DNA from: an uncultured Spirochaetales bacterium
Lineage (GTDB): Bacteria; Spirochaetota; Spirochaetia; Sphaerochaetales; Sphaerochaetaceae
Length of the DNA stretch: 64,000 nt
NCBI GenBank assembly: GCA_949293595.1
Contig: CASFDW010000001.1
Coordinates: forward strand, 558,001-622,000
Reading direction: 5' to 3'
Below the pieces are notes generated by a model. That model was not told where the DNA came from, searched no databases, and saw only the letters and a list, made by a program, of their open reading frames with translations. The stretch's first letter is position 1. Each line of letters starts with the position of its first letter. The position numbers and the translations under genes are program-made. This document shows, one piece after another, positions 44,810 through 64,000 of this stretch.

Positions 44810-44821
44810 AAGCCTCTCCAT

Positions 44822-47541: not shown

Positions 47542-47546
47542 CAAAA

Positions 47547-47565
47547 TCGCCGGTCATCCCGGCGA
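47547..47565 (-). promoter_or_regulatory. Stem-loop after the tctC gene
   Basis: TCGCCGG (47547-47553) pairs with CCGGCGA (47559-47565) around a 5-base loop. It begins seven bases after the tctC stop codon and is followed, reading leftward, by only four T, so it could attenuate transcription into the D-aminoacylase gene rather than end it. It is one of five binding-protein-linked hairpins. Confidence 0.65.
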
Positions 47566-47572
47566 CTAATAA

Positions 47573-48595
47573 TCAGGTCTTGCTTGCAATGAGCTCTGCA
47601 AACATCGCAGACTCGCTGGCTATCTTGTCGAGCAGTTCATCCGGTGACAGATAGTCCACTGTGGAACCGATGACGTCAAAAGCTTCAGCCACCTCCGGAT
47701 TGGCGAATATTTCGGCAAAACCGTCGACAAGAGTATCATACACGTCATCAGGAGTGTCGGCAGGCACAGCAAGACCGTTCCATATGCTCACAACCATGTC
47801 AACTCCGATTTCCTTGGCCGTAGGAGTATCAGGAAGGGTCGGATATCTTTCAGCTTCAAAGATCAGGATCGGAATCAGGTCGCCCGATTCTATATACTGA
47901 TAGATGTTTGTCGGGTGGACTCCTGCGACCTGCACCTGGTTTCCTAGCACGTTGGTAATGGCGGGAGTGGCCCCCTCTACCGGAACGTTCAGCATCTCTA
48001 TGCCAGCTTTTTCCGCAAAAGCCTGGATTGCAAGATCGATTGCCCCGTTTGCTGCACAGCTGTAGAAAATGGTATCATTTTTCCCAGCGGCAATCAGATC
48101 ATCGACATTCTTGATCGAACCTTTTGCATTCACGGCGAGTACAATCGGAGAATTTGAGTACTGGCAGATATATCTGAAACTGTCGGATGTGTACGTTGTC
48201 TGACCATAACCAGGCATGATGGATACTCCTCCGGTATATGGGACTCCGATTGTATACCCGTCCGGACTGCTGTCGGCAAGCTGTGTCATGCCAATTGTTC
48301 CGGACCCTCCGGGAACAGCAACCGGAATGAGCTCCTTGCCAAACTTCTTACTGAAGAATGGTGCCACAGCCCTGATCTGCAGATCTGTTCCTCCCCCAGC
48401 AGATGCAGCCATGATACACTCAACTGCTTTTGTAGGGTATGCCTGTTTGGCCGCAGCGGCAGTCCCTGTTGTCGATACCGTCGCAGATCCTGCGGCCGTC
48501 TGATTATCCGTACTTGTCGATTTGGAACAACCGACCAGCATCAACACGGAAAGACACAGTACCAATGCAACTGCAATCCATTTCGTTTTAAACAT
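47573..48595 (-). CDS. tctC: TctC-type tripartite tricarboxylate transporter binding protein
   Basis: This 340-residue lipoprotein (signal ending LMLVGCSKS) has the Bug/TctC pattern YPTKAVECIMAASAGGGTDLQIRAVAPFF near residue 55, VAVPGGSGTIGMTQLADSSPDGYTIGVPYTG, and WNGLAVPADTPDDVYDTL. Such receptors bind carboxylates. It is encoded after tctA and tctB and just before the D-aminoacylase gene, so an N-acyl amino acid is a plausible ligand. The ATG at 48595 has GAGGAGG; the open frame to 48661 does not. Confidence 0.88.
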   Translation of the reverse strand: MFKTKWIAVALVLCLSVLMLVGCSKSTSTDNQTAAGSATVSTTGTAAAAKQAYPTKAVECIMAASAGGGTDLQIRAVAPFFSKKFGKELIPVAVPGGSGTIGMTQLADSSPDGYTIGVPYTGGVSIMPGYGQTTYTSDSFRYICQYSNSPIVLAVNAKGSIKNVDDLIAAGKNDTIFYSCAANGAIDLAIQAFAEKAGIEMLNVPVEGATPAITNVLGNQVQVAGVHPTNIYQYIESGDLIPILIFEAERYPTLPDTPTAKEIGVDMVVSIWNGLAVPADTPDDVYDTLVDGFAEIFANPEVAEAFDVIGSTVDYLSPDELLDKIASESAMFAELIASKT

Positions 48596-48596
48596 C

Positions 48597-50105
48597 TCAA
48601 ACCTCCTCGACGTTCTGTTTTCTTCTCTTCCTGATGAAAGAGGAAGCAAACGAATAAACAAGATAAATTAATGTCAGAGCAAGTATGGTCCCGGAAATCG
48701 GTCTGGTGAAGAACATTGCAAAATCACCTTTGCTCATGACAAGTCCCCTTCTCAACGACGCTTCCATCTCCGGGCCAAGAACAAGACCGACAATCAACGG
48801 TGCGGCATCGTAACCGGCCAGTTTCATAAATACGCCGACCGCCCCAAAAATAATCAGCAACCACAAGTCAAAAGTGCTGTTGTTCATGCTGTAGGCACCA
48901 CAGAAAGCTATTACGGTGACTATGGGCAGCAATATCCTTGCTGGTATTTTCACCAAAGAGGCAAAGACAGGAACCAGTGGCAGATTCAACACGAGCAACA
49001 TGACATTGCCGATATACATGCTTGCAATGAGCGTCCAGAACAAAAGCGGATTCTGCGTGATGAACAACGGTCCGGGCGTTATTCCCTGTATCGTCAACCC
49101 ACTCAATAGAATCGCAGCAGCCGGAGCGAACGGCAAACCAAGGGCCAGAAGAGGCACGAACGCTCCGGAGCTGGCTGCATTGTTTGCTGATTCAGGACCG
49201 GCAACACCCTCTATCGCCCCATGCCCGAACTCTTCAGGATGCTTCGACACCTTCTTTTCCACGGCATAGGAGGCCAGTGTGGACATTATGGCGGCAGGTC
49301 CGGGAATCAGCCCGATAAAAAACCCGATCAAGCTACCACGCAATATCGGCATCACGGACTTCTTCAACTCCTCCTTGTTCGGATACATCTCCCGTATTTT
49401 CACTTTGATCAGATCCGCTGAATCCTGCCTTTCCGCCGCGGTCAGGAGTATTTCCGTCAGACCGAATACGGCTATTGTCACAACAGACATCTCGATGCCA
49501 CGGCTTAGCTCCGTCACTCCGAAAATGAACCGTTGCCACCCCTCGATGGGATCGATACCTATCGTTCCAAGCATCACCCCAACAAAAACCATAAGGAGTG
49601 ATTTCATGAATGATTTACCGGTAAGATTGCTCAACAACACAAAGCCGAGAACCGAGATTGCAAAAAACTCCGGAGGGCCGAAGGCCAATGCCGCATTCGC
49701 AAGTATCGGGGAGAAAAGCATTATCCCGACAACGCCTATCGTACCGGCGAAGAAGGATCCGTAAGCAGAGATTGCCAACGCAGCCCCGGCCCTTCCCTTC
49801 TTTGCCATCTTGTATCCGTCAAAGGTGGTAACCATCGCGGGAGACTCCCCCGGCATGTTCATCAATATCGCTGTCGTGGATCCACCGTACATGGATCCGT
49901 AGTAAACACCGGCAAGCATGATCAATGCCGTGGACGAGCCCATCGTATATGTCAGAGGGAGCAATAATACCATGGTGGTCACACCACCGAGTCCGGGAAG
50001 GACTCCGACAATGGTTCCCAAAAGAACTCCGATGAAACAATAGAGAAGATTCTGGGCACCAAAGGCAACAGAGAAACCGGAAAAAAGATTCATCAATACA
50101 TCCAT
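48597..50105 (-). CDS. tctA: TctA-type large membrane subunit
   Basis: This 502-residue protein with about 11-12 helices has the TctA signatures GTIVGVLPGLGGVTTMVLLLPLTY (about 35-58), YYGSMYGGSTTAILMNMPGESPAMVTTFDGY and the internal repeat GFFIGLIPGPAAIMSTLASYAVEKKVSK. It forms the sodium-coupled permease of the tripartite tricarboxylate transporter family with TctB and TctC. GAGAGG lies six bases before the ATG at 50105; the TTG at 50111 is not needed. Its stop is one base from the tctC start. Confidence 0.92.
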   Translation of the reverse strand: MDVLMNLFSGFSVAFGAQNLLYCFIGVLLGTIVGVLPGLGGVTTMVLLLPLTYTMGSSTALIMLAGVYYGSMYGGSTTAILMNMPGESPAMVTTFDGYKMAKKGRAGAALAISAYGSFFAGTIGVVGIMLFSPILANAALAFGPPEFFAISVLGFVLLSNLTGKSFMKSLLMVFVGVMLGTIGIDPIEGWQRFIFGVTELSRGIEMSVVTIAVFGLTEILLTAAERQDSADLIKVKIREMYPNKEELKKSVMPILRGSLIGFFIGLIPGPAAIMSTLASYAVEKKVSKHPEEFGHGAIEGVAGPESANNAASSGAFVPLLALGLPFAPAAAILLSGLTIQGITPGPLFITQNPLLFWTLIASMYIGNVMLLVLNLPLVPVFASLVKIPARILLPIVTVIAFCGAYSMNNSTFDLWLLIIFGAVGVFMKLAGYDAAPLIVGLVLGPEMEASLRRGLVMSKGDFAMFFTRPISGTILALTLIYLVYSFASSFIRKRRKQNVEEV

Positions 50106-50115
50106 AATCAACCTC

Positions 50116-50568
50116 TCAGCCTAGAATCCCTTTGGGAAGCGGGACAGCCAACAAAGAGAAAACCAAAAAGAACGCAATTCCGGTACAAATCGAAATAATC
50201 GCCGCCGACCTGATCCTGTTGCCCATTATCAAACACAAAAGAAACGTGAAGACGACGGTTGAGATAACATACCCCACAGGTTTGAAAATCAAGGCATAGC
50301 CGATGAAACAAACTATGAACAAAAGAATTTTCACAGGATAATCCATATCAGCTTCCGGACGGGATTTCTTCAAATAGTCGGAGATAAAAAGTCCACAGGA
50401 TACGACACATGTGGCAACCCCGACTATTCTCGGTATGAATCCCGGGCCAGGAGACCTGAAAGTTCCGAAAGAAAGCTTGAATGCATTGAATGTATAAAAG
50501 ACCGACAAGATGAAAACAAATATCAGAAACACTAAATTCAAAGGTATTTTCTTAAGCTGGGATTTCAT
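50116..50568 (-). CDS. tctB: TctB-type small membrane subunit
   Basis: This 150-residue protein with four hydrophobic helices has the TctB pattern SFGTFRSPGPGFIPRIVGVATCVVSCGLFI and FKPVGYVISTVVFTFLLCLIMGNR. It is the first gene of the leftward operon with AGGAGG before its ATG, ten bases from tctA. It completes the three-part carboxylate importer. Confidence 0.88.
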   Translation of the reverse strand: MKSQLKKIPLNLVFLIFVFILSVFYTFNAFKLSFGTFRSPGPGFIPRIVGVATCVVSCGLFISDYLKKSRPEADMDYPVKILLFIVCFIGYALIFKPVGYVISTVVFTFLLCLIMGNRIRSAAIISICTGIAFFLVFSLLAVPLPKGILG

Positions 50569-50620
50569 GTTGCCTCCTCTTGTATAAATTTCAAATATAA
50601 AACACTATTCTATATATAAA

Positions 50621-50649
50621 ATCCTATTATGCTAGAATCTAATTGTCAA
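50621..50649 (-). promoter_or_regulatory. Predicted promoter of the tctBAC operon with flanking inverted repeat
   Basis: Read leftward, TTGACA (50649-50644) is followed after 17 bases by TAGGAT (50626-50621). The half-sites ATTCTA (50607-50612) and TAGAAT (50633-50638) flank the -10 region and may be the operator of the divergent IclR protein. Confidence 0.45.
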
Positions 50650-50777
50650 ACTTTTTTATAAAAAAAATAATTTCTATACAGCAAAAATAATTATGTTATT
50701 CTTTTGCCTTGACTTTACAGTTGAAGAATGCAATAGTAATATTATATATTTTATATATGAAATGATATGAGGCTACC

Positions 50778-51557
50778 ATGTCCGAACAAGTAGAATACAA
50801 AGAACAGAATACAAATTCAAATCCGCTCAAGGCTATCGATATCTTGGAGGGCCTGGCCCAAAATCCATCAGGACTTGTATTGCATGAGCTTGCCGCAATT
50901 ACAAAACTCAACAAAAGCACAGTCTACCGCATTACAAACAGTCTCATCGAAAGACATTATGTGATAAGGGACGAAACAACCAAAAAATACAGACTGACGT
51001 TCAAAATACTCGGAATAGGCAGTTCCATTCTTGATACGATTGAAATTGCAAAAATGGCAAAGCCATATCTCCGGAAATTGGCGGACATATCCCAAGAAAC
51101 CGTACACCTCATCTGCAGGGACGGATACGAGGCAATATATCTGGACAAGATCGATACTCCTAACACAATCGGACTGAAATCACAAATCGGTAAACGCATT
51201 CCTCTATATTGCACGGGAGGAGGAAAAACCCTTCTTGCTTACAGTGAGGCAGAATTCAAAATTTCTTTTTTTGAAAAAACCAAACTGGAAGCATTCACTT
51301 CAAACACAATCACAAGCAAGGACAAGCTTCTACTTGAGCTTGAACAAATCAAAGAGAACGGATTTGCCTTGGATGACCAGGAACACCACGATAATATTAC
51401 ATGCATTGCCGTCCCGATTTTGAACAAGCAAGGAAAAATAGAGGCAAGCATAAGCATCGCCGCGCCAACCTACCGCTTTTCAACAGATCTGGCAAAAACA
51501 TTCATACCTTCGATGAAAAAAAATGCGGAACTCATCGCCCAGAATCTGCCATACTAG
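50778..51557 (+). CDS. IclR-family transcriptional regulator of the D-amino-acid operon
   Basis: The protein has 259 residues. The winged helix (about 14-80) reads NPLKAIDILEGLAQNPSGLVLHELAAITKLNKSTVYRITNSLIERHYV, and the IclR effector domain contains ETVHLICRDGYEAIYLDKIDT, GKRIPLYCTGGGKTLLAY and GFALDDQEHHDNITCIAVPILN. It is divergent from tctBAC and therefore the probable regulator of that operon. The start lies in an AT-rich region with weak ribosome-binding signal (TGAGGCTACC). It is followed after nine bases by a small membrane-protein gene. Confidence 0.86.
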   Translation: MSEQVEYKEQNTNSNPLKAIDILEGLAQNPSGLVLHELAAITKLNKSTVYRITNSLIERHYVIRDETTKKYRLTFKILGIGSSILDTIEIAKMAKPYLRKLADISQETVHLICRDGYEAIYLDKIDTPNTIGLKSQIGKRIPLYCTGGGKTLLAYSEAEFKISFFEKTKLEAFTSNTITSKDKLLLELEQIKENGFALDDQEHHDNITCIAVPILNKQGKIEASISIAAPTYRFSTDLAKTFIPSMKKNAELIAQNLPY

Positions 51558-52338: not shown

Positions 52339-53604
52339 TCAATCAGTCTCATCCCACGTATCCAACAGCTCTATGATTTTAAGATAATCCCTCATGATAT
52401 GGAACGGATCCTTCACAGGGAGGGCCACAACCTTGTCCTCCGGACATCCGTTGCGTTTCCGTATCTGTATCCATTCCCTATCAGTTCCTTCAGGAAATGT
52501 CGAATACACATAAGAGCGCACCTTGCCGTACATTTCCTCATAACAGTCCCTTCCCGTGATCCTATGAAGGAGCAACGAGATGTAAAGGGCCTCGGAATGC
52601 GGCCACCAGAGCTTCATGTCCCAGGTATCCGCAATCAGCTTCTCATACGGCGTTCCGAAAAGCTCTCCATGGGGCGCGCCTTTGTCGCAATCGACGAATC
52701 TGAACAGTCCGCCATATTCATCATCCCAGCCCAATTCGAAAGTGCTGGAAACAATCCTTTCTATGCGTGCAAGCCTCTCCTCAAGACCTCCGTATCTTTC
52801 AAGATGTTCGATCCAGAACCAGGCATCCTCAAGGACATGCCCGGGATTCACGTGCCTGTCGATAAGGCGGACATCACTATTTGCAACACTTGAGACATGC
52901 TCCCGGATCACGCCATGGGCATCGTCATACAAACAGTCAAGGATGAAAGAAAGCTCCCTGGAAGCCAACGAAACGGCAGCGGAGGAATCAAGGCCGAAGG
53001 ATTCCCGCATCATGGCATACTCATCCAGGGTATTGATCATTATCATGGGAACTCCATGGACCTTGTATCCCGGGGGAATCGGATAAGGATCGGTAAGATA
53101 ATCCCCCGTTCCCAATCTTTCGACGATGCTCGAGCACAGCCTGTCAGCAAGCACAACTTCCTCCGCATCATGCGTCACCCTGATGTATGCGGATATCCCG
53201 ATAAGGGCAAAACAATCGGCATAGATAGAAAGGTCGGTACGTCCGGAGTCATTGCCGGCAATCGCATTGCCGTACCTATCAAGGAGGAAATGGCATCGGC
53301 CGGAAGAGGAAATCGAACAGTTTTTGATGAAGCCGTATGTCCCCCTCATCAAGGAAAGGATACTCTTCCTTTCAACCGAAGCAAGCACCCCTTTCCCCGC
53401 AAGCTCATATACCGTGGACAAAACCCAGAGCCACCTGCCCTGCGACCAGGTGAACTTGTTGTAACTCAAAAGCCTTCCACCATCGTTCGATATGCAGTTC
53501 AGCAGACCTCCGTATTCCTCGTCGGCATATTCAAGCCAGTAAGGCAGGAAATTGTTCCCGACCTCAGAAATATAGAAATCCTTTATACTTTTATAATCCA
53601 TCAT
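52339..53604 (-). CDS. AGE-family (N-acylglucosamine 2-epimerase/cellobiose epimerase) protein
   Basis: The protein has 421 residues and an alpha6/alpha6-barrel. N-terminal FLPYWLEYADEEYGGLLNCISNDGGRLLSYNKFTWSQGRWLWVLS is the AGE hallmark; catalytic histidine candidates occur in DRHVNPGHVLEDAW, WWPHSEALYISLLLHRI and in FHIMRDY. Members epimerise GlcNAc to ManNAc, mannose to glucose, or the reducing end of cellobiose and mannobiose. No sialic-acid gene is nearby, so the substrate is open. Start assignment is weak: ATGs at 53604/53601 begin the conserved region and the ATG at 53622 also lacks a ribosome-binding site. A leftward TATAAT (53658-53653) lies upstream. Confidence 0.82.
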   Translation of the reverse strand: MMDYKSIKDFYISEVGNNFLPYWLEYADEEYGGLLNCISNDGGRLLSYNKFTWSQGRWLWVLSTVYELAGKGVLASVERKSILSLMRGTYGFIKNCSISSSGRCHFLLDRYGNAIAGNDSGRTDLSIYADCFALIGISAYIRVTHDAEEVVLADRLCSSIVERLGTGDYLTDPYPIPPGYKVHGVPMIMINTLDEYAMMRESFGLDSSAAVSLASRELSFILDCLYDDAHGVIREHVSSVANSDVRLIDRHVNPGHVLEDAWFWIEHLERYGGLEERLARIERIVSSTFELGWDDEYGGLFRFVDCDKGAPHGELFGTPYEKLIADTWDMKLWWPHSEALYISLLLHRITGRDCYEEMYGKVRSYVYSTFPEGTDREWIQIRKRNGCPEDKVVALPVKDPFHIMRDYLKIIELLDTWDETD

Positions 53605-53719
53605 AAGAACATGTAATGACATGGTTGCTTGTCATTCTCTTTCCATTATGGAATTATAAATCAAAACAGAAAGCAATTGATGCAAAACAATATAAAGTTA
53701 TAATGGATAAAAGCGATAA

Positions 53720-54016
53720 TCACGTACCTACCTTATTTTGCTCCTGCTTTTCAATCGTGATATTCCTAAAAAAAAGAACCACATCCATCAATACCATGAC
53801 TAAATTCAAGAAATAGAAAAATAATACGTACCACTTATAATTTCCAGAAATGAGCTTTCCCATAATGCCGAATACATATCCTAAAGAAATAAGCAACAAG
53901 AAAACCAAACTCTTACCTTTTGCCGTTCTACTTTTATATGATTTCATGACATTTACAGGCCAAGAACACCCAAAAAGGATAATCATAAGTATTTCAAAAA
54001 GCTCCGAAATCACCAT
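53720..54016 (-). CDS. Small PQ-loop (SemiSWEET-like) membrane protein
   Basis: This 98-residue protein with three predicted helices has the PQ-loop-like segment FGCSWPVNVMKSYKSRTAKGKS at residues 15-36, typical of short bacterial MtN3/PQ-loop proteins. SemiSWEETs dimerise to form a sugar channel, but many members of this short subtype are uncharacterised. GGGG precedes the ATG by ten bases. The next gene upstream is a cupin on the same strand. Confidence 0.72.
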   Translation of the reverse strand: MVISELFEILMIILFGCSWPVNVMKSYKSRTAKGKSLVFLLLISLGYVFGIMGKLISGNYKWYVLFFYFLNLVMVLMDVVLFFRNITIEKQEQNKVGT

Positions 54017-54052
54017 AATTCAGCAACCCCTTTTTCATACCACATGTTGTAA

Positions 54053-54409
54053 TCATTGCTTCGGATAAACTATCAAAGCAATGATTTCTACAGGTTGCTC
54101 CCCGGAATTCCTGATCCCATGTCCCGTACCAACCGGAGTGAAAGTAACATCACCAGGGCCAACAGTGCGTATTGAACCATTATCATTATATTCAGCTGTT
54201 CCACTGTATATATAGTAGATTTCCATATCCTTATCATGGACGTGATATCCAATCTCACATCCAGGATTAAGTGTGGTATGTGCAAATACACGGCCTTTAT
54301 TATTCAGCTCTTCATCACTTGTTATTAAATTACGTACCAAAATATATCCATCCCCACCAAATTTATTGTCAAATCGCTCAGGCAGAATGTTTTCAGATTT
54401 TCTTATCAT
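54053..54409 (-). CDS. Small cupin protein
   Basis: This 118-residue cupin has motif 1 GYHVHDKDMEIYYIYSGTAEY and motif 2 GDVTFTPVGTGHGIRNSGEQPVEIIALIVYP, so both metal-binding histidine sets are present. Its N-terminus (IRKSENILPERFDNKFGGDGYILVRNLI) matches short cupins often found beside sugar isomerase or epimerase genes. Function is unknown. The ATG at 54409 follows GGAGG by six bases. It is divergent from the LacI gene, with a LacI-like operator in between. Confidence 0.78.
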   Translation of the reverse strand: MIRKSENILPERFDNKFGGDGYILVRNLITSDEELNNKGRVFAHTTLNPGCEIGYHVHDKDMEIYYIYSGTAEYNDNGSIRTVGPGDVTFTPVGTGHGIRNSGEQPVEIIALIVYPKQ

Positions 54410-54450
54410 ATTTACCTCCAATAAAAGAATATCACGGTTTCAATAAAATT

Positions 54451-54462
54451 GGAAACGATTTC
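54451..54462. promoter_or_regulatory. LacI-family operator-like site
   Basis: GGAAACGATTTC (54451-54462) contains GAAA-CGA-TTTC, the form of CcpA/LacI operators. It lies between the divergent cupin and LacI genes, 67 bases before the LacI start codon and 42 bases before the cupin start. Confidence 0.5.
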
Positions 54463-54488
54463 ATATTTTTTTGAAAGAAAAACATCCT

Positions 54489-54528: not shown

Positions 54529-55515
54529 ATGACTATTAATGAAATTGCAGAAAAAGCCAATGTATCTCCAGCAACCGTCTCAAGAGTAATAAACAACTAT
54601 CCATATGTACAAAAGAACACAAGAGCCCGAGTATTACAGGTCTTGGCAGAATGCAATTTCGTTCCCAATGCAACAGCGCAAAGTTTGGTGACAAATGCCT
54701 CAAAAATGATAGGCATACTCATTGCCGACATACGCACAACACAACATACAGATGGAATATACTACATAGAAAAGGAATTTACCAAAAATGGGTATTCATG
54801 CCTCATCTATAACACAGGAACAGATCCAGAGAAACAAGCATACTACATACAAATGCTTAGCCAAAGGAAAATAGATGCAGTTGTCTTGATGGGATCTGTA
54901 TATCAGAATGAGAGTGTGCAGAATGCAATCATGATTTATTTACCTAATATTCCTGTTGCCATCTGCAACGGATATTTGGCAGGTCCTAATATTTATGGAG
55001 TGGTTACAGACGAGAGAACCGGGCTAAAGGAATGCGTGAAAATGCTTTGTGAAAAAGGCCATAAAAATATGGCATTCATAGCAAACCACTTTACTCCAAG
55101 CAATAATGATAAAGTATTAGGATTTGAGGAAGGATTCAAGCTTTACTCAAAAAATGGAAACTATGTAACAATCGTGGCCGGAGATGAAACGTCCGAAATA
55201 TATGCTGCGACACTGAATCTCGTCAAAGAAATTCCAGAAATAGATGCAATCATATATGCAGAGGATTTTTTAGCATTGATAGGAATACATGCATTGACAG
55301 AAGCGGGCATAAGTATTCCATCCCAAATTGCAGTTGTCGGAATCAATAATTCCAAGTATGCAGAAATCAGTAATCCCGCTTTAACAAGTATTGACAATAT
55401 GTTGTATGACACAAGTATGATTGCAGTGCGGAATTTGCTTAATGTCCTAGAAGGAGAGCGCGTCAATCATAAAATGATGATAAATGTGGAAATCATCGAA
55501 AGGGAAACAACCTAA
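54529..55515 (+). CDS. LacI-family transcriptional regulator
   Basis: The protein has 328 residues. The headpiece begins at residue 1 with TINEIAEKANVSPATVSRVINNYPYVQKNTRARVLQVLAECNFVPNATAQSL, followed by the sensor domain (KMIGILIADIRTTQHTDGIYYIEKEF, DAVVLMGSVYQNESVQ, IPSQIAVVGINNSKYAEISNPALTSID). Its gene is AT-rich like the TRAP operon beyond the terminator. It may control the divergent cupin/PQ-loop genes, the convergent TRAP operon, or both. The start lacks a Shine-Dalgarno sequence. Confidence 0.87.
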   Translation: MTINEIAEKANVSPATVSRVINNYPYVQKNTRARVLQVLAECNFVPNATAQSLVTNASKMIGILIADIRTTQHTDGIYYIEKEFTKNGYSCLIYNTGTDPEKQAYYIQMLSQRKIDAVVLMGSVYQNESVQNAIMIYLPNIPVAICNGYLAGPNIYGVVTDERTGLKECVKMLCEKGHKNMAFIANHFTPSNNDKVLGFEEGFKLYSKNGNYVTIVAGDETSEIYAATLNLVKEIPEIDAIIYAEDFLALIGIHALTEAGISIPSQIAVVGINNSKYAEISNPALTSIDNMLYDTSMIAVRNLLNVLEGERVNHKMMINVEIIERETT

Positions 55516-55678: not shown

Positions 55679-56602
55679 TTATTTTTCATCTTTTGGTAAG
55701 AACGCACCCGCAAATTTCAGCTGAGAGTGGTCACTGAACGATGCACCCAAACCCAACCAATCATTTGCTCCAAACATCTGATGATTACCGAAGGCTGTCA
55801 TATGTTCCCCGTTTGGAAGATAAGAATGTTCCACAGAATAGATATCGCTCATATCCTGCTTTGAGTGCAACCCATACTCCCACATATATTCATTCGCACC
55901 AGCCATGGCAAATTCCATGGTAATCACATCAATACCTGCTGAAACAAGCTGTTCATATGAGGCAACCTTTTTTTCATTCATTTCAAACATCTTATGTCCT
56001 TGGACCGCTTTGGAGAAACTTTCTATTTCATCGAAACATTCAATTTCCCCAATACAAACAACGTCAACACCAAGTTCATGGGCCATCTTACAACGCTCTA
56101 TCGCTTCTTCCAACCCGGCAATCTTTTTGGAAAAGGTTTTCGCAACAAGCATGCATCCGGTACTATCTGTAATATATTTTGCCGCTTTCAATTTGGACAA
56201 ATACTCTTCACGAGGAACAATTTTACGTCCTTCTATAAATGTCGGCTGGAATACGGTATCATCCAAAACAATCGCAGAAGCACCTGCTTTAACCATTCTT
56301 TCGCAACTTCTTAATACATTTATCTCATTGCCAAACCCACACCCAAGATCAACCATCAACGGTAGCGGACTCATATTATCAATATGATCAACAACAGTCA
56401 AAAACTCCTCGAAATCGAGCATTCCCAAATCCGGGAAGCCAACAAGACTGGCCGCAACATTTTTGTATGGGATATTCAAAGCGGCAAAGCCTACCATTTC
56501 CATTGTTTTTGCGGAAACACAATCAAAGACATTGGACAGAAGTACCGGCCCCGCCTTAAATAAACTATTGAAATCAACATGTCTTTTTCCATTGAATAAC
56601 AT
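55679..56602 (-). CDS. Isocitrate lyase/PEP mutase superfamily protein with degenerate active site
   Basis: The protein has 307 residues with the same TIM-barrel layout as the next gene: AGPVLLSNVFDCVSAKTMEMVGF, LPLMVDLGCGFGNEINVLRSCERMVKAGASAIVLDD. The usual metal-binding DxDTGxGN is DLGCGFGN here, the Glu of the ED pair is Asp, and the catalytic loop KxCGH is replaced by TFIEGRKIV. Key residues for lyase or mutase chemistry are thus missing. It is ten bases downstream of an intact homologue, so it may form a regulatory or structural heteromer with it, or carry a changed activity. It is the last gene before the terminator. Confidence 0.75.
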   Translation of the reverse strand: MLFNGKRHVDFNSLFKAGPVLLSNVFDCVSAKTMEMVGFAALNIPYKNVAASLVGFPDLGMLDFEEFLTVVDHIDNMSPLPLMVDLGCGFGNEINVLRSCERMVKAGASAIVLDDTVFQPTFIEGRKIVPREEYLSKLKAAKYITDSTGCMLVAKTFSKKIAGLEEAIERCKMAHELGVDVVCIGEIECFDEIESFSKAVQGHKMFEMNEKKVASYEQLVSAGIDVITMEFAMAGANEYMWEYGLHSKQDMSDIYSVEHSYLPNGEHMTAFGNHQMFGANDWLGLGASFSDHSQLKFAGAFLPKDEK

Positions 56603-56612
56603 ATTCGCCTCC

Positions 56613-57497
56613 TTACTTTAAAGTTACCTTAGCAACATATTCTTCCCACTTTTTCAAATCCGTTAAAGCCTCAGGGGAAGATAGACTATCCTTGAAATAT
56701 TTTGCATGATCGATAGCGTAAAAATTGTTTTTATTTCTCAAGCATTCCTTACCATAAGCTATCATTCCTGTTACCATAGCCATCATTGTCCAATGGAATG
56801 TCACAAGATTAAACCCCATATCAACCATATCCTTGAATGTAACTTTCGGGCTTGCTCCATAAGAAGCCATGCCAAACATTTTCCAACCTGGCACGCGTCT
56901 TCCAATTTCTTCCATTGCTTTCACAGAATCGATGGCCTCGGTAAAAGAAACTTCCGCTCCAGCTTCTATTGCAGCATTATTTCTCCAAATAGCCTCCTCG
57001 ATCCCAAGAATATTATACGAATCAGTTCTGGCAATTATAATCACATCCGTTCCTTTAAATATTTCATGTGCAGCTCTGATCTTTCTAATATATTCCTCCC
57101 TGCTAATGACTTCCTTACCTGCCAGGTGTCCACATCTTTTGGGGAACTTCTGATCTTCAAGATGTATGGCCTTAGCACCAGAAGCAACAATACGCTCACA
57201 AGTCCGCATTACGTTGTATTCATTGCCCCATCCCGTATCAACATCCACAATCATTGGCAAAGGACATATACTTGTAATATGTTCGATTGTGGTACAAAGT
57301 TCGGTGAAAGTACCTAAACCTATATCAGGTAACCCAGAACGCGTTCGGGCTGTTTCAGAACCGGAAAGGCATGTAGCGGTAAAACCCAAATCATACGCCA
57401 TTCTTGCCGAAATTGCATCATATACACATGGTGCAAAAACAGGTCCTACTTCCAGAAGTTCTTTCAAAGATTTTTTTTCTTCTTTTTTCGCAAACAT
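56613..57497 (-). CDS. Isocitrate lyase/PEP mutase family C-C lyase (2-methylisocitrate lyase-like)
   Basis: This 294-residue TIM-barrel enzyme has all family motifs: FAPCVYDAISARMAYDLGFTATCLSGS, the metal motif MIVDVDTGWGNE, the catalytic loop EDQKFPKRCGHLAGKEV and IIARTDSYNILGIEEAIWR. Members split 2-methylisocitrate, 2,3-dimethylmalate, oxaloacetate or carboxyphosphonoenolpyruvate. The lyase-type KRCGH loop favours cleavage of a substituted malate or isocitrate to pyruvate or succinate. Co-occurrence with a MmgE/PrpD protein (2-methylcitrate dehydratase family) and a TRAP carboxylate importer fits. A GGAGG site precedes the ATG; it lies 19 bases after dctM. Confidence 0.83.
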   Translation of the reverse strand: MFAKKEEKKSLKELLEVGPVFAPCVYDAISARMAYDLGFTATCLSGSETARTRSGLPDIGLGTFTELCTTIEHITSICPLPMIVDVDTGWGNEYNVMRTCERIVASGAKAIHLEDQKFPKRCGHLAGKEVISREEYIRKIRAAHEIFKGTDVIIIARTDSYNILGIEEAIWRNNAAIEAGAEVSFTEAIDSVKAMEEIGRRVPGWKMFGMASYGASPKVTFKDMVDMGFNLVTFHWTMMAMVTGMIAYGKECLRNKNNFYAIDHAKYFKDSLSSPEALTDLKKWEEYVAKVTLK

Positions 57498-57516
57498 TTT
57501 TATCCTCCATTTATTT

Positions 57517-58815
57517 TTAACCTACTAAATTAGGCAACCAAGTCACAATTCCCGGGCAAAACAACATCAAGATACAAAGCAAAATCATCACAGCAAGATA
57601 TGGCAATGACTCCTTGATAACTTCGCTTGCTGGACACTCCGCGATAGAAGCAGAAGCATAGATCAAATTACCGACAGGCGGAGTATTAAGACCAATATTT
57701 ATAACCAGGGAAGCTAATACAGAAAACCATACCAAATCAACATTTGCAGATATCAAAGCTGTTGCCATCATTGGCATAATGACCATATGCTGTACCACAG
57801 TTTCAAGCAACATACCTAAGATAAAGAAAATAATCATGCAAATACAAACCAACAGGAAAGGAGAACCAATATTGGCTGATGCCCAAGCTGAAATTACATT
57901 TGTCACTCCCATTGATGCAATAATCCAAGTGAAAATACCCGAAGTACAAATTATTGCAAGAATTCTTCCACCTGTTGCTGCTGCACGGGCAAGACATCCC
58001 AGTACTTTACGGAATGAGAAATTTCCATAAGCAATTAATAAGATTATTGCTATCAAGCAAGATACAGCTCCGATTTCAACAACCGTACCAATGCCCGCCA
58101 ACAAGAAAAAAATAGTTAAAGCAGGAAGCAATACTGCGCCGAATCCATATTTGAACTGTCTCCAAACATTTTTCCATCCACCCCATTCCGAACAGGGGAA
58201 ATGCCTTTTCTTTGCCAGAATAAAACTAATAACCAATTGAAAGACACCAAGCAATATTCCAGGTACTATTCCACCCAAAAACAACTTACGGACAGAAACA
58301 CCCAATACCATAGCACACATGATAAAACCATTTGATGGAGGAATAATAGGCCCAATAATTGAAGAAACTTCAGTAACAGCTGCAGAATATCCAGCAGAAT
58401 ACCCTTCCTTTTTCATCATTGGAATCATCATCGATCCAATAGATGCTGTATCTGCCGTAGAAGAACCAGACACACCAGCAAAAATCATTGAAGCCAAAAT
58501 ATTTATATGGCTCAAGCTACCTGGTATATGACCAACCAATGATTTCAAGAAGGCAATAAGCCTATCACCTAATTCAGTACTATTTAATAGCTCACCCAAA
58601 AAGAAATAAAAACAGATAGCCACGAATGTAGTGCTATTGATTCCACTGATGATTCCCGAACCGATTACAGACATTGGAAGTCTTCCTGGAAATACAAGTC
58701 CCCAAGTAGCACAGGCAAGAATCATACTGAAAAAGACGGGAAAACGGAATGCCATCATATAAATAAACAGAGAGCCAAAAAGGACCGCTAATCCTAAAAT
58801 TACTTGAGAACTCAT
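57517..58815 (-). CDS. dctM: TRAP transporter large membrane subunit
   Basis: The protein has 432 residues with about 12-14 helices. DctM signatures are FRFPVFFSMILACATWGL near the start, ILASMIFAGVSGSSTADTASIGSMMIPMMKKEGYSAGYSAAVTEVSSIIGPIIPPSNGFIM and the second-half VQHMVIMPMMATAL, INIGLNTPPVGNLIYASASIA. It couples sodium entry to substrate uptake with DctQ and DctP. The start at 58815 overlaps the dctQ stop (ATGA); the longer frame to 58902 lies within dctQ. Confidence 0.92.
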   Translation of the reverse strand: MSSQVILGLAVLFGSLFIYMMAFRFPVFFSMILACATWGLVFPGRLPMSVIGSGIISGINSTTFVAICFYFFLGELLNSTELGDRLIAFLKSLVGHIPGSLSHINILASMIFAGVSGSSTADTASIGSMMIPMMKKEGYSAGYSAAVTEVSSIIGPIIPPSNGFIMCAMVLGVSVRKLFLGGIVPGILLGVFQLVISFILAKKRHFPCSEWGGWKNVWRQFKYGFGAVLLPALTIFFLLAGIGTVVEIGAVSCLIAIILLIAYGNFSFRKVLGCLARAAATGGRILAIICTSGIFTWIIASMGVTNVISAWASANIGSPFLLVCICMIIFFILGMLLETVVQHMVIMPMMATALISANVDLVWFSVLASLVINIGLNTPPVGNLIYASASIAECPASEVIKESLPYLAVMILLCILMLFCPGIVTWLPNLVG

Positions 58816-59312
58816 AATTTCTTTTCTCCTTGTCGTGTAATTATTGGAATAACTGTTAATAAAAACTTGAAAACCGCTGCAATAAAAAGTAAAAATCCGC
58901 ACACAATCAATGGAACATAGCGAAAAGACTCATCATAACCTACAGCAGATTCTGTAAAACCTCTATTCAACCTAAATGTGTAGGTTCCCAATCGAACCAA
59001 TTGTATTGATGCATATACTGCTACAATTTGTAAAACAATATATAACGCTTTCTTCACTTTCTCAGAATAAAGATGATCTGTTATATCCATCTCCAAGTGC
59101 GTTCCTTTAAACCAAGCCAAGGGAACTCCCAACCCTGTAATCCATTGAATGCACAAGACAGACACATCTTCAACCCAAGTTACTTGTACAGCAATAAAAT
59201 ACCTTGTTATTACTTGTATGGTCATGGATAGAACCATAAACCCAAGAATCAATGCAATTATTAGTTCAATTATTCCGCAGATCAATGTTTCGATCTTCTG
59301 TATTTTTTCCAT
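58812..59312 (-). CDS. dctQ: TRAP transporter small membrane subunit
   Basis: This 166-residue, four-helix DctQ protein has TIQVITRYFIAVQVTWVEDVSVLCIQWITGLGVPLAWFKGTHLEMDI, in which WVED and the GTHLEMD segment are family hallmarks. The ATG at 59312 follows GAGGGTG; the frame open to a TTG at 59333 is not needed. It links the binding protein and the large subunit. Confidence 0.9.
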   Translation of the reverse strand: MEKIQKIETLICGIIELIIALILGFMVLSMTIQVITRYFIAVQVTWVEDVSVLCIQWITGLGVPLAWFKGTHLEMDITDHLYSEKVKKALYIVLQIVAVYASIQLVRLGTYTFRLNRGFTESAVGYDESFRYVPLIVCGFLLFIAAVFKFLLTVIPIITRQGEKKL

Positions 59313-59337
59313 AACACCCTCGACAAAAGGCAATAAA

Positions 59338-59378
59338 GAGGCTGTAAAAATTCAATACTATTGAAAGAATACAGCCTC
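59338..59378 (-). promoter_or_regulatory. Stem-loop after the dctP gene
   Basis: GAGGCTGTA (59338-59346) pairs with TACAGCCTC (59370-59378), and inside a 4/4 internal loop TTCAA (59351-59355) pairs with TTGAA (59361-59365). It starts seven bases after the dctP stop and ends 25 bases before the dctQ ATG. No T-run follows, so it is probably an mRNA-processing or stability element. Confidence 0.7.
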
Positions 59379-59385
59379 ATTTTCA

Positions 59386-60396
59386 TTAAATGCCAATGGC
59401 TGCAATTTTGTCATACAGACCCTTGGTCCACATAACACCATCAAGTTCCTTTGCTACTTCTGCTGCCTTTGCAATAAATCCGGATACATCGACATCATCA
59501 ATGAAAATAACCCCTTGATCTTTTGCTGTCTCTACCAAATCAGCATAGCTATCCTGCATCCAGTTATTAAATTCAACATGGGCCAATTCACGACCTTCTT
59601 CAAGCCACGCTTTCTGTTGGTCTGTAAGTTTATCATATGTAAGAGCAGACATATAAAGGATATTGCCCTGCTGAACATAGTCGATTGGCATAAAATACTT
59701 TGCGACTTCCAACCAACCATTATTAAAAGCTGTCTGCAAACTATTTTCCTGAGCATCGCACATGCCTGACTGCAGAGCGGTATACGTTTCTTTTGAAGCA
59801 ATTACCATCGGATTTGCTCCCCAAGCCTCCCATACCATCATCATGGACTTGGTTTCAGGAACACGTACTTTTAAGTTGTTGACGTCCTCAATACTATAAA
59901 TTGGGAATGTGGCAGAAAGACAACGTGGGAAATCGTTTCCCATGGGGCCAAGGTATTTAACCCCATTTTCCGGTTCAACTTTTGCCATCATCTCTTTGAG
60001 GACATCACTTTCAAGAAAGTCGGCATAATGCTTGGAATCCCTGAATAGATAGGGGACCACACACACTGCAAAATCCTCACCACCTTTCATTGTTGTTCCT
60101 GTATCCAATGCTGTGATAAAAATATCGAGTGAACCTTCCCTTAATTGAGCATAATGCTGTGCAGTTGTCCCCAGCGCTCCTGCGCCGATTACCTCAATTT
60201 TGATTTTCCCACCACTGACCTCTGCAACTTTTTCAGCATACTCAACGGCAGCCTTATAAAGAACACCTGTTGTTGCGCCTGTTGTGCCCATCTTCAGCGA
60301 AATAACACCATCTGCAGAACTCTCGGTAGTACCTCCAGCCATCAAGACCCCTACAACGATTGATAAGACAACAATCATAGCTATTATTCTTTTCAT
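59386..60396 (-). CDS. dctP: TRAP transporter substrate-binding protein
   Basis: The protein has 336 residues with a signal peptide ending GVLMAGGTTESSADG. The DctP fold shows VLYKAAVEYAEKVAEVSGGKIKIEVIGAGALG, LREGSLDIFITALD, the conserved carboxylate-binding arginine in NNLKVRVPET, and ALQSGMCDAQENSLQTAFNNGWLEVAKYF. TRAP receptors of this class bind organic acids through that arginine. A family-typical stem-loop follows the stop codon. Substrate is unknown but should match the downstream and upstream carboxylate enzymes. Confidence 0.92.
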   Translation of the reverse strand: MKRIIAMIVVLSIVVGVLMAGGTTESSADGVISLKMGTTGATTGVLYKAAVEYAEKVAEVSGGKIKIEVIGAGALGTTAQHYAQLREGSLDIFITALDTGTTMKGGEDFAVCVVPYLFRDSKHYADFLESDVLKEMMAKVEPENGVKYLGPMGNDFPRCLSATFPIYSIEDVNNLKVRVPETKSMMMVWEAWGANPMVIASKETYTALQSGMCDAQENSLQTAFNNGWLEVAKYFMPIDYVQQGNILYMSALTYDKLTDQQKAWLEEGRELAHVEFNNWMQDSYADLVETAKDQGVIFIDDVDVSGFIAKAAEVAKELDGVMWTKGLYDKIAAIGI

Positions 60397-60421
60397 ATAT
60401 ACCTCCTTTTATGAAAAAAAC

Positions 60422-61156
60422 TTACTTATTCTGTTTTGCAATGGTTACAGCTTCCAATAGGGAAGGAAGCGCATTTAACGAAACCTTATTACGCGCATCA
60501 CGATCTGTGCAATTTGCCATATCGTAATAAGCTTTTCTACCAATCCGGAACACTTCTTTATCAAAATGGGTTATATACCCAACATATTTCATGACTGTCG
60601 GCCAGAACTCTTCATCTTCTACGATTTCATTTAAAAATCCCATTTCAAGCGCTTCTTCGGCAGAAAACATTTCCCCAGAATAATAGGCCTTCAAGGCTTT
60701 CTTCTTTGGCATGACATCAATTGTCCTAGCTATCACAACCATTGGAAATGTACCATTCTTCGCTTCTGTAAAGCCAAACCTAACCCCTTTTCTTGCAATA
60801 GCAAAATCCGCATCTGCGACAAATCCCATTCCACCGGCCCTACAATCCCCTGAAACAGCAGCGATTATGGGCTTATCAAGTTTTTTTTGTGCAGTCTCTC
60901 TCCGGGACAAAGCTTTGTTGTATTTTAGCTTATCCTCGGCATCACCATACTTTACCCGTCCTCCTGTAAAAAAGAACTTATCATCACCGGTCATGATGAC
61001 AACACGGATATCATCGCGGGAATTTGCCTCATCAAATGCATCAGCCATAATCTCATAGGCCTGCCAATTCATCCCGTTTTCCTCTTCAGGCCTATTTGCT
61101 TTAATAAGCATGATCCCATCTTGCACCTCTACGATCAAAGGCTGTTCACTATTCAT
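60422..61156 (-). CDS. Enoyl-CoA hydratase/isomerase (crotonase)-family protein
   Basis: This 244-residue crotonase-fold protein has the CoA-binding and oxyanion-hole segments FFFTGGRVKYGD and IIAAVSGDCRAGGMGFVADADFAIA. The first catalytic glutamate of enoyl-CoA hydratases is kept (FGFTEAKNG), but the second aligns with lysine (KKALKAYYSG in place of the AMEMVLTG type), and the glycine loop is changed to TFPMVVIART. Straight hydratase activity is therefore doubtful; isomerase, decarboxylase or hydrolase activity is possible. It overlaps the MmgE/PrpD gene by eight bases. No CoA ligase or transferase gene is visible in the window. Confidence 0.82.
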   Translation of the reverse strand: MNSEQPLIVEVQDGIMLIKANRPEEENGMNWQAYEIMADAFDEANSRDDIRVVIMTGDDKFFFTGGRVKYGDAEDKLKYNKALSRRETAQKKLDKPIIAAVSGDCRAGGMGFVADADFAIARKGVRFGFTEAKNGTFPMVVIARTIDVMPKKKALKAYYSGEMFSAEEALEMGFLNEIVEDEEFWPTVMKYVGYITHFDKEVFRIGRKAYYDMANCTDRDARNKVSLNALPSLLEAVTIAKQNK

Positions 61157-62498
61157 TCATTTCCTCCTTTTTAACTGATAAGTAATCCAGCATTTGCGAG
61201 AAATTCTGGCAGCATGACAATTCACTGCATAGGTCCAATACCTGTCTTGTATTTTCCATGCCGATATAACCAGGCATATGCTTTAAAAAATTGCTTTCAA
61301 TTCCCTCTGCTGAAAGAGAGTAGAATTGGTCTGCCGTTGCAATGATATGCATACCATCATCAAGCATGACATCTATCTCAACAGCATCACGCATCTTTTT
61401 TTCTGTAAAGACTATCTCAATCATATCCATCAGGCTACGAACTCTGTCATCATAAGGAGGCATCCACTGAATATCTGTGCAGGCTCCCGATGATAATGTA
61501 GCTACCAGTCCAAATGGCATGCTCATGGATGCTTGGACAAGATTGCAAACATCATTTTTCCGAAAATACCACGGGCTGTCTTGCAACTGACTTGATACGA
61601 TCAAGCTGATTTTTTTAATTTTATTCAAATCAAAACGAACATCCGCTACAATTTTCTCAGCCGTCAAGCAAAGAGACTGTAATGCACGACAAGCTTTAAT
61701 TTGTTTATGCTTGGTCTCGATAATCGCATTAAAATGTTCCAAGTCCATCGTCATTAAATGACTGTTCCCCCTGGCTCCAAAGACATTAAGCAGGCCGAAA
61801 TCGCCTTCAAAGTTCCCTAATGTGACATCTGCACCCGCCTTGACAAGTGTCACACATGACAACCCATATAAAGCGGCATATGCATTTAGGAACACATCTT
61901 CGCCAGTACCTTCCATTCTCCATTCATTCAATCCTGAAATATAATGGCAGCTCATTGCAGCAGCTTTTGCAGTCATAACCCCATTCAACCCAAGAATCTT
62001 CGAAGCAGCAAAAGAAGATGCCAAAGCAATGCCCAACGATGTTTTCCTCAAAGATGCTGGAATCTTGCCGGAACCATCCAGCCCGATGGTCATACCAAAC
62101 CTTTTTAAAATCTCGTATCCGACAATGATCGCTTCAAGCACAGTTTTCCCGGAAACCGCATTTGCCTCTCCCAATGCCACAACCAACGGGACTATTGAAG
62201 CTCCCGGATGAGCATTGCCTTCGATATTCATATCATTTCTCGAGGATACGGAACCGGAAACAATATTGTAGAAGGTCGCACCTCTGACAGAGGATTTCTC
62301 ATTTCTGCCAAACAAAGTACATCCCCCTTTTTCTTCCAGGGCAACCTTAAGCGCAACTTGTACTCTTAAATCATTGAATGTATCAAAGCAACATTCTATC
62401 GAGTCCAGCAAACACAGCTGGGCCCACTTTATATGTTCTTGATCCAGACTCTCCAACCTGAGAGAACAAGTATAATCTGCCAAAACCTGGAGAATCAT
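61149..62498 (-). CDS. MmgE/PrpD-family protein
   Basis: The protein has 449 residues with the MmgE/PrpD layout: an all-helical N-terminal domain with GGCTLFGRNEKSSVRGATFYNIVSGSVSSRNDMN, GNAHPGASIVPLVVALGEANAVSGKTVLEAIIVGYEILKRFG, and a C-terminal alpha/beta lid. Family enzymes are 2-methylcitrate dehydratase, cis-aconitate decarboxylase and iminodisuccinate epimerase. The usual DxxDTH-type segment before the HPG motif reads SSRNDMNIEGNAHPG, so active-site residues differ. ATG 62498 overlaps the cyclase stop by one base. It probably dehydrates or isomerises the hydroxyacid imported by the TRAP system. Confidence 0.82.
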   Translation of the reverse strand: MILQVLADYTCSLRLESLDQEHIKWAQLCLLDSIECCFDTFNDLRVQVALKVALEEKGGCTLFGRNEKSSVRGATFYNIVSGSVSSRNDMNIEGNAHPGASIVPLVVALGEANAVSGKTVLEAIIVGYEILKRFGMTIGLDGSGKIPASLRKTSLGIALASSFAASKILGLNGVMTAKAAAMSCHYISGLNEWRMEGTGEDVFLNAYAALYGLSCVTLVKAGADVTLGNFEGDFGLLNVFGARGNSHLMTMDLEHFNAIIETKHKQIKACRALQSLCLTAEKIVADVRFDLNKIKKISLIVSSQLQDSPWYFRKNDVCNLVQASMSMPFGLVATLSSGACTDIQWMPPYDDRVRSLMDMIEIVFTEKKMRDAVEIDVMLDDGMHIIATADQFYSLSAEGIESNFLKHMPGYIGMENTRQVLDLCSELSCCQNFSQMLDYLSVKKEEMNE

Positions 62499-63181
62499 CA
62501 AAACCCCTCTAGACCTTCAATTGCATATACGCGAACCGGACACGAATCCAAACCTGATATATACATCGGTGCATAAGAAATAAAGAATGTTTCCTTATGT
62601 AATTCATCCAAATTCTTCAGAACCTCAAGAAACAAAATATTTTTTTCCATGCAGATATCGTGGAAAGGCTTAACATCTTCATTGCTGTTCTCAATTGACA
62701 CACCATCACCAAAACCCACGCACTTCACTTTATGAGATACCATCCACTCCGCTGTTTCCCCATTTACGAGTAATCGTAAATCTTCAGGGCCATTTGTTTT
62801 TGAAGTAAACGGTTCCAGCTTGAAACAGGAATCAAGGATGACAACATCGCCTTCACGGACTTTTGCACCCAGTGCCATATCCAAATCCTCGGCCGTGATA
62901 TGGCTTAATGGCTTAAGCTCTGTGAACTCATGGTAAATTCCACGACCAATGAAAGAGACCAAGGGAATAGCCCCTACATCCGGCCAGGAATCATCATGAT
63001 GATAAGGACATTCGCAGTGGGTTCCAAGATGACTCATTATATCAATATTCGTATGGAAATCTGGAATCGGACCACCTGTGTTGAATCGATGCAATTTGCA
63101 CCGCCGCGTTTCTTTCTCAGGAACAATACGCTTTGTCAAATCAATAACGCGAAGCCCATTCAAATTAAATACTTTTTCCAT
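62498..63181 (-). CDS. Cyclase-family metal hydrolase (kynurenine-formamidase-like)
   Basis: This 227-residue protein has the cyclase motif SHLGTHCECPYHHDD (His and acidic metal ligands, about residues 50-64) and the start LRVIDLTKRIVPEKETRR. Family members hydrolyse formamides, lactones or isatin-type amides with manganese or zinc. VREGDVVILDSCFK and KCVGFGDGVSIENSN follow the family pattern. Located between the ketopantoate-reductase-like and MmgE genes, it could open a lactone or cyclic amide before dehydration. AGGGGATAG precedes the ATG. Confidence 0.82.
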   Translation of the reverse strand: MEKVFNLNGLRVIDLTKRIVPEKETRRCKLHRFNTGGPIPDFHTNIDIMSHLGTHCECPYHHDDSWPDVGAIPLVSFIGRGIYHEFTELKPLSHITAEDLDMALGAKVREGDVVILDSCFKLEPFTSKTNGPEDLRLLVNGETAEWMVSHKVKCVGFGDGVSIENSNEDVKPFHDICMEKNILFLEVLKNLDELHKETFFISYAPMYISGLDSCPVRVYAIEGLEGF

Positions 63182-63183
63182 TT

Positions 63184-64000
63184 CTATCCCCTATTTTTTT
63201 CTTCGATTGCGTGAATGACCAAAACAAGCATTTCATGGTATGGAACAGGAATTCCTATTTCCCTGGCAACAGCGACAACACTCCCGCTGATTGTGTCAAC
63301 CTCGCTTACTCTGCCCTCCCGAACATCCTCATAGATTGATGTGAAAGCATTTTTTGCATTTGTGCATATTCCCTCTATCTCTTGGACCACTGTCTTATAA
63401 TCGAATTCAAGTCCAAGTGCATTGGCGACATTGACAGCTTCAAATGTAAGCAAATGCATAAGTTTCCTTGCATTTTTATTCTCTACAATAAAGCCCAAAG
63501 ATGATTGAAAAACAGCAGTCAATGCACTTGCGGATGTATTTATGAACAGCTTATCCCATATCTGTTTTCTTACAGAAGAAGAAACTTCACAGTCGAATCC
63601 ACACAGCTTGAAAGAAGATACAATCCCATATAAGACCGAAGGATCGCCATCCAATAATCCTATATAGCTTTTTCCGCAACCGCCATGCATTACTTTACCA
63701 AGAGAAAGGACAGAGCTGTTGTGCTGAGTGGAACCTATAACAATATGATCCTGCTTGGCGAATTGCTTAAGGAACTTTTCATGACCTATTCCGTTTTGCA
63801 AAGTCATAACATAGGTATTCGATCCGATGATACTCTTACATCTTGCCAAAGCAACCGTAGTGTACATGGATTTGACAAAAACTATAAGTAAATCCACAAC
63901 CGGGATATCCTGCGGATCAACAACCGCTTTCGGATGGAAAACTTTAGAGCTACCATCTTTCTCCTGTATGCTCACTCCATTATCAGTAATCTGATTGATC
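63184..64000 (-). CDS. Ketopantoate-reductase-like (PanE/ApbA) oxidoreductase, 5' truncated
   Basis: The frame stays open through the right window edge, so only the C-terminal 271 residues or so are visible. They show the second part of the Rossmann domain (VVDLLIVFVKSMYTTVALA, IIGSNTYVMTLQNGIGHE) and the all-helical ApbA C-terminal domain (KQIWDKLFINTSASALTAVFQSSLG, EVDTISGSVVAVAREIGIPVPYHEMLVLVIHAIEE). The GxGxxG nucleotide motif is beyond the edge. In a catabolic operon it more likely reduces or oxidises a 2-keto/2-hydroxy acid than makes pantoate. Its stop is three bases before the cyclase start. Confidence 0.82.
   Translation of the reverse strand, partial: INQITDNGVSIQEKDGSSKVFHPKAVVDPQDIPVVDLLIVFVKSMYTTVALARCKSIIGSNTYVMTLQNGIGHEKFLKQFAKQDHIVIGSTQHNSSVLSLGKVMHGGCGKSYIGLLDGDPSVLYGIVSSFKLCGFDCEVSSSVRKQIWDKLFINTSASALTAVFQSSLGFIVENKNARKLMHLLTFEAVNVANALGLEFDYKTVVQEIEGICTNAKNAFTSIYEDVREGRVSEVDTISGSVVAVAREIGIPVPYHEMLVLVIHAIEEKNRG

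Follow-up and report, generated by a model that had tools for sequence, protein, structure and literature searches.

Introduction

The described systems nearest to the gene cluster analysed here are the yiaKLMNO-lyxK-sgbHUE operon of Escherichia coli for 2,3-diketo-L-gulonate, the E. coli nan system, and hexuronate systems built around tripartite ATP-independent periplasmic (TRAP) transporters (e.g. STM3169, PMC7660916). In E. coli the anomerase YhcH (NanQ) opens the ring of sialic acid for the aldolase, and is thus a ring-opening helper beside a lyase with a 2-oxo acid as product (PMC8141875). Our cluster occupies one end of the window, a stretch of 64,000 nucleotides (bases 558001-622000 of contig C1) from the 2.08 Mb, 14-contig genome of an uncultured Spirochaetales bacterium, a gut treponeme. 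Nine genes on its minus strand (window positions 55679-64000) encode a TRAP importer, a ketopantoate-reductase-family NAD(P) oxidoreductase (KPR), a cyclase-fold metal hydrolase (CYC), a crotonase-fold protein, an MmgE/PrpD-like protein and two proteins of the isocitrate lyase (ICL)/phosphoenolpyruvate (PEP) mutase superfamily, here called ICLcan and ICLdeg. We propose, with a probability of about one half, that the cluster is under LacI control and serves to break down a carboxylate of the sugar-acid type; a uronic- or aldonic-type acid, or such an acid as a ring or lactone, is the likeliest candidate.

The cluster is similar to the yia, nan and hexuronate TRAP systems in outline and is not a member of any of them by gene content. 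With the yia operon it has in common the TRAP importer and the logic of a sugar-acid operon, and a YiaL/YhcH protein and a YiaK dehydrogenase recur in related loci; unlike that operon, it has no kinase or decarboxylase that we could see and is built on KPR, CYC and C-C lyases. YiaK, YiaL, LyxK and SgbH found no match among the window proteins, YiaK- and YiaL-like genes being seen in the relatives only. NanA, NanK and NanE are absent from the window cluster, whose lyase belongs instead to the ICL/PEP-mutase superfamily. The hexuronate systems share the TRAP receptor family and, at some loci, Uxa neighbours, whereas Uxa lies outside the window cluster (UxaC is on contig C2) and KPR-CYC-ICL chemistry is added here. 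The 2-methylcitrate cycle (prpBCDE) is represented by distant PrpB and PrpD family members, but PrpC and PrpE are missing from the cluster, PrpD residues are lost, the regulator is a different one and import is by TRAP. ICLcan is most similar to the subfamily of 2,3-dimethylmalate lyase, oxaloacetate hydrolase and petal death protein, with which it shares the KRCGH and DxD motifs; the operon context differs, and the Cys is missing from most of the related lyases at KPR-CYC loci. An initial annotation, made from the letters of this DNA, had described a TRAP-linked catabolic operon distinct from both the methylcitrate cycle and dimethylmalate cleavage, which gene content and residues bear out.

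The KPR-CYC core and its distribution

All nine minus-strand open reading frames (ORFs) are present, contiguous and leftward as initially annotated, and each of the families then named exceeds its Pfam cut-off: two PEP_mutase/ICL, DctM, DctQ, DctP, ECH_1, MmgE_PrpD_N, Cyclase and ApbA (ketopantoate reductase). The operon very probably begins with KPR (63184-64000; ORF, Pfam and alignment). The start of this gene lies 100-140 bp past the window end, the contig runs on for 560 bp and contains the complete gene, and a same-strand ORF fragment beyond it ends 275 bp upstream of KPR. The protein has 318 residues from the first ATG, or 305 from MKIAVLGAGAMG. The operon had been expected to continue past the window, and only the N-terminus of KPR does so. 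CYC, a protein of 227 residues with the PF04199 cyclase/kynurenine-formamidase fold, is encoded at 62498-63181.

A search of 395 Spirochaetia genomes, in which matches of at least 59% identity were reported, found CYC in 46. A scan of genome contigs gave 311 loci encoding CYC relatives; the 80 kept for study belong to Lachnospiraceae, Oscillospiraceae, Synergistales and spirochaetes, and include Treponema parvum, Hungatella hathewayi and Lachnoanaerobaculum orale. On plasmids, CYC had distant matches only. Neighbourhoods were counted over 103 CYC-bearing loci, representing 91 distinct CYC sequences from Spirochaetia, Clostridia and Synergistetes. KPR is encoded no more than two genes from CYC and on the same strand in 74 of the 91 distinct loci, a core conserved across phyla. 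The partners found among the 103 loci were YiaL-type proteins (48), LacI regulators (38), TRAP DctM (31), ICL-superfamily proteins (13, or 10 distinct), cupins (13) and YiaK-like dehydrogenases (10), the last being 38-46% identical to E. coli YiaK; importers are of the TRAP or the ABC type. A literature search returned no description of a module of cyclase and ketopantoate reductase, which is weak evidence of novelty since most subscription journals lay outside its coverage.

The C-C lyase seems to be exchangeable between loci, although the counts are small and the links are by nearness only. ICL-superfamily lyases accompany CYC in the 10 distinct loci, from Spirochaetes and Clostridia, and other KPR-CYC loci carry RraA-, DapA-, HpcH- or KDPG-aldolase-type lyases instead. 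The locus closest to the window in gene set is L040, with KPR, CYC, crotonase, TRAP, an aldo/keto reductase, ICL and cupin; L041, L042 and L130 are near variants of it. Relatives of the cupin encoded left of the operon stand beside KPR, CYC, ICL or crotonase genes in L040, L041, L042, L046, L049, L089, L094, L111, L122, L130 and L146. The question whether the enzymes of the window occur together in this genome alone has a divided answer: KPR, the cyclase, TRAP, ICL, crotonase and cupin recur in other genera, and the PrpD-like protein and ICLdeg do not.

Three loci (L171:3981-11701, L196:113-7909 and L205:2-8700) share a cluster of a membrane protein, Hydantoinase_A, a protein outside the known Pfam families, a YiaK-like dehydrogenase, YhcH, CYC and KPR. 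Its presence in both an oral Lachnospiraceae species and gut Synergistales suggests horizontal transfer.

Predicted LacI operators at both promoters

A LacI-family regulator is encoded on the plus strand at 54529-55515, tail-to-tail with the nine-gene operon, and falls into the same sequence cluster as the LacI proteins beside KPR-CYC elsewhere, with which it also shares a predicted operator. A pattern search placed one LacI-type operator, TGGAAACGATTTCA, on the plus strand at 54450-54463 in the gap between LacI and the cupin gene, and a second, TGAAAGCGATTTCA, at the start of KPR, 126-139 bp past the window end. A strict pattern, TGRAANCGNTTTCA, matches the genome four times, including once in the LacI-cupin gap and once at the KPR start. 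A looser pattern matches six times and its reversed control not once, and two of the six sites lie at the two promoters of the cluster, those of the cupin row and of KPR. The remaining four were taken as chance matches: three are inside genes, and one, on contig C14, is followed after about 130 bp by a gene with no relation to the cluster.

The pattern was read first in the window genome, loosened after some relatives had been seen and then counted on the same set, the controls being treated alike. In this looser form, TGNAANCGNTTNCA, it occurs 40 times in 1.52 Mb of the relatives' loci, and 37 of the 40 sites are just upstream of KPR, CYC, YhcH, LacI, ICL, cupin or YiaK-like genes, a count to be read as a description of this set and not as an independent sample. 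It is found in 24 of 29 LacI-bearing loci. Four scrambled control patterns gave 0-3 matches each on the same loci, none upstream of core genes. The operator also precedes ICL genes in L044 and L046 and an ICL cluster in genome G047, which ties the ICL genes to the same type of regulon apart from their adjacency to CYC. The predicted operators thus place the cluster under putative LacI control.

Extra operator sites in the relatives precede KPR-YhcH, ICL and a Dabb-like gene, and no gene among them names a substrate. The Dabb-like protein (96 residues) has a LacI operator upstream in genome G024 (L241:6618-6908) and adjoins the cupin in L130 (L130:13099-13389); it may be a further member of the regulon. 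A matching LacI-type operator is also present in two relatives (L237:5239 and L239:5381) between a divergent set that looks by eye like a molybdenum hydroxylase and a GltD-like gene, where it possibly belongs to a different LacI regulator.

Active sites of the encoded proteins

KPR carries the GAGAMG nucleotide motif of the ketopantoate reductase family, and the catalytic Lys, Asn and Glu positions are kept in its L040 orthologue when aligned to 5hws. CYC scores 52.9 bits with the Pfam Cyclase model and has the PF04199 metal motif with Glu in place of Asp, HLGTHCECPYHH; His174 and Glu186 are invariant. Its AlphaFold model (mean predicted local distance difference test score 85) aligns along its full length, at Z of about 19-21, with isatin hydrolase, kynurenine formamidase and the metal-dependent hydrolase 3krv, and 8hmo is likewise matched along the whole chain. 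With the arylformamidase model, CYC reaches 34.2 bits where the cut-off is 223.05.

ICLcan (56613-57497; Pfam and motif check) has both VDVDTGWG and KRCGH intact, and its nearest solved relatives are 2,3-dimethylmalate lyase and petal death protein. ICLdeg (55679-56602; Pfam and motif check), its paralogue and the final gene of the operon, reads VDLGC, with DxG for DxD, and lacks KRCGH. The initial annotation had named two ICL-family lyases; an intact active site is found in ICLcan only. No orthologue of ICLdeg was closer than the ICLcan genes of KPR-CYC loci, and a plasmid search gave distant matches only. Most ICL proteins at the other KPR-CYC loci are without KRCGH and its Cys, and many of them keep the metal ligands. 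PEP-mutase-superfamily paralogues with a broken metal motif stand beside intact ones at L158:4349-5302, at L043:7433-10176 and 17271-18176, and in the window at 55679-56602, hinting at recurring inactive partner subunits in ICL/PEP-mutase pairs.

The MmgE/PrpD-like protein (61149-62501; 450 residues) matches the N-terminal Pfam domain only. By alignment, it keeps the Asp and the first His and has replaced the second His, the Lys and the third His, three of five positions whose catalytic roles we presume from ACOD1. The gene is absent from all other KPR-CYC loci studied. Proteins of 22-31% identity were found in 5 of 100 relatives, none in the genome-contig collection and some of about 23-26% on plasmids, with no common context. 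The weight initially laid on MmgE/PrpD is not justified by these results.

The crotonase-fold protein (60422-61156) belongs by Pfam and by its orthologues to a subgroup with an invariant TGGRV motif, in which Gly replaces the first catalytic Glu and the second Glu is kept (4 of 4 orthologues); the two-Glu signature of a hydratase is therefore lacking, if the two positions have the roles that we assume from enoyl-CoA hydratase. Orthologues occur in the clusters of three relatives (L040, L041 and L042) with ICL alongside, and most KPR-CYC loci have no crotonase.

The three TRAP components are encoded together. DctP, the solute-binding protein (59386-60396; Pfam and sequence reading), has the two Arg positions of acid-sugar binders, and SiaP- and hexuronate-type TRAP receptors are among its nearest solved relatives. 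Pfam assigns the small membrane subunit DctQ (58812-59333) and the large one, DctM (57517-58902), whose true start is probably downstream of the overlap with DctQ.

Substrate class and alternative pathways

Ring opening by a hydrolase, a redox step and cleavage by a lyase, as suggested in the initial annotation, remain the best scheme for these genes. The TRAP transporter would import the acid, and CYC could then open a ring or hydrolyse a lactone, ester or amide bond. KPR would interconvert the 2-hydroxy and the 2-oxo acid with NADP(H), and ICLcan would split the C-C bond beside the 2-oxo or 2-hydroxy carboxylate to give a small 2-oxo acid of the pyruvate or glyoxylate type and a second product. 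The cupin and a protein of the N-acylglucosamine 2-epimerase (AGE) family most likely provide the anomer or isomer that is needed, as YhcH/YiaL appear to do in related loci. The crotonase may perform an additional step, and the PrpD-like protein and ICLdeg would be lineage-specific, catalytically altered additions.

Three observations point to a sugar acid. The loci often encode YhcH/YiaL proteins, of which E. coli YhcH opens cyclic sialic acid, and from this we infer a ring-forming sugar acid as the substrate; YiaK-like dehydrogenases and uronate genes neighbour the loci, UxaC, UxaB, UxaA, KduI and KduD adjoining several of them; and in the window the AGE-family gene sits behind an operator. 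UxaC is present in all 46 CYC-bearing Spirochaetia genomes versus about 205 of 349 others, an association that agrees with a sugar acid and is confounded by kinship. Treponema parvum, which we take to depend on uronic acids, was considered as using KPR-CYC for its sole uronate route, an idea dropped on finding two UxaC genes in its genome.

Several points weigh against a sugar acid as the substrate. The window cluster itself encodes neither YhcH nor YiaK, and the PDB matches of DctP are too even to name a ligand, many TRAP receptors being about equal. ICLcan is nearest to branched-malate lyases and not to sugar-acid lyases, and a crotonase normally implies CoA thioesters. UxaC is common in Spirochaetia, and its co-occurrence with CYC may reflect lifestyle as well as kinship; the operator count, as said, is descriptive.

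CYC might instead act as an amidohydrolase on a cyclic amide or an N-formyl compound, with KPR, crotonase and ICL processing the resulting acid. Where an activity has been named for a solved relative of CYC, it is mostly that of a kynurenine formamidase or an isatin hydrolase, and Hydantoinase_A and M28 genes are present in some KPR-CYC clusters, but we saw no recurring aminotransferase, ammonia lyase or amino-acid gene at these loci, where the recurring partners are sugar-acid genes; we consider this route unlikely. A CoA-dependent pathway for a branched acid has to be judged a little less likely still. An enzyme encoded elsewhere would activate the acid with CoA, the crotonase would hydrate or isomerise it and ICLcan would split a dimethylmalate-like acid to pyruvate and a short acid. 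The adjacency of crotonase orthologues and ICL in L040, L041 and L042 and the closeness of ICLcan to 2,3-dimethylmalate lyase speak for such a pathway. Against it, CoA ligase and CoA transferase genes are neither in the operon nor seen in the nearest relatives, the sequence right of 64000, to which the initial annotation had looked for them, holds neither within the remaining contig, and a class III CoA transferase was not found in the 14 contigs of the genome; the crotonase, moreover, is without its first catalytic Glu and absent from most KPR-CYC loci.

Degradation of a compound of the pantoate or pantolactone type would have CYC open a 2-hydroxy-lactone, KPR oxidise the 2-hydroxyl and the PEP-mutase-fold lyase carry out a retro-aldol step like a reversed PanB. 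Ketopantoate-reductase catalytic positions are indeed kept in KPR, and the matches of DctP include 4nq8, which we take to be a TRAP receptor with bound pantoate. The KPR family here is just 22-29% identical to E. coli PanE, however, the DctP match is unspecific, and the YhcH, AGE and uronate partners favour sugar acids, all of which makes pantoate degradation improbable. The family names (PrpD-, PrpB- and crotonase-like) recall the methylcitrate cycle or a nicotinate-type dimethylmalate pathway, a reading that is hardly credible given that the cluster has no methylcitrate synthase (the genome's single citrate synthase is on contig C8 near aconitase), that ICLcan and ICLdeg score 215.7 and 107.8 bits against a cut-off of 354.4 for the methylisocitrate lyase (PrpB) equivalog model, and that PrpD catalytic residues are lost.

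The likeness to the methylcitrate cycle thus does not hold, the PrpD-like protein and ICLdeg being private to this genome among the loci studied and lacking catalytic residues, and the widespread KPR-CYC core under predicted LacI control is the more interesting fact. As to a sugar acid as substrate, we tentatively raise the possibility of a widespread, undescribed gut pathway in which a core of KPR and a cyclase-fold hydrolase feeds interchangeable C-C lyases; the window would represent the type whose sugar-acid lyase is an ICL/PEP-mutase enzyme, possibly with the active and the dead paralogue joined in one complex. KPR-CYC with the LacI operator is found in many gut genomes, a single scan giving 311 loci that encode CYC relatives, and so the pair probably acts on some common acid, derived from the diet or the host, for which no breakdown route is annotated. 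Identification of the substrate would name, together, the function of the cyclase, ketopantoate-reductase and crotonase subgroups and of several ICL-superfamily lyases, and the defined regulon offers a direct way in through the ligand that releases LacI.

Neighbouring genes in the same genome

Leftward, the cluster extends through the plus-strand LacI gene to a divergent minus-strand row at 52339-54421. Its first gene (54053-54421) encodes the small cupin, a relative of TM1287 (1o4t); a link to oxalate through this relationship was considered and is a guess. A small membrane protein (53720-54016), PQ-loop/SemiSWEET-like by eye and without a Pfam match, is probably co-transcribed with the cupin. 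The AGE-family sugar isomerase/epimerase (52339-53622) is, from the gene order, probably part of the same cupin operon.

A separate cluster at window positions 44001-51557 encodes DapA-like, alanine-racemase-like and (by eye) N-acyl-D-amino-acid-deacylase-like proteins, TctA/TctB and an IclR regulator, and probably serves the catabolism of D-amino acids or related acids. Elsewhere in the genome, another sugar-acid-like cluster (L219, G000:C1:396000-409000) encodes, by eye, DhaK/DhaL-like proteins, GntR, IclR, YhcH/YiaL, DapA-like and HpcH/HpaI-like aldolases and a TctA-like transporter.

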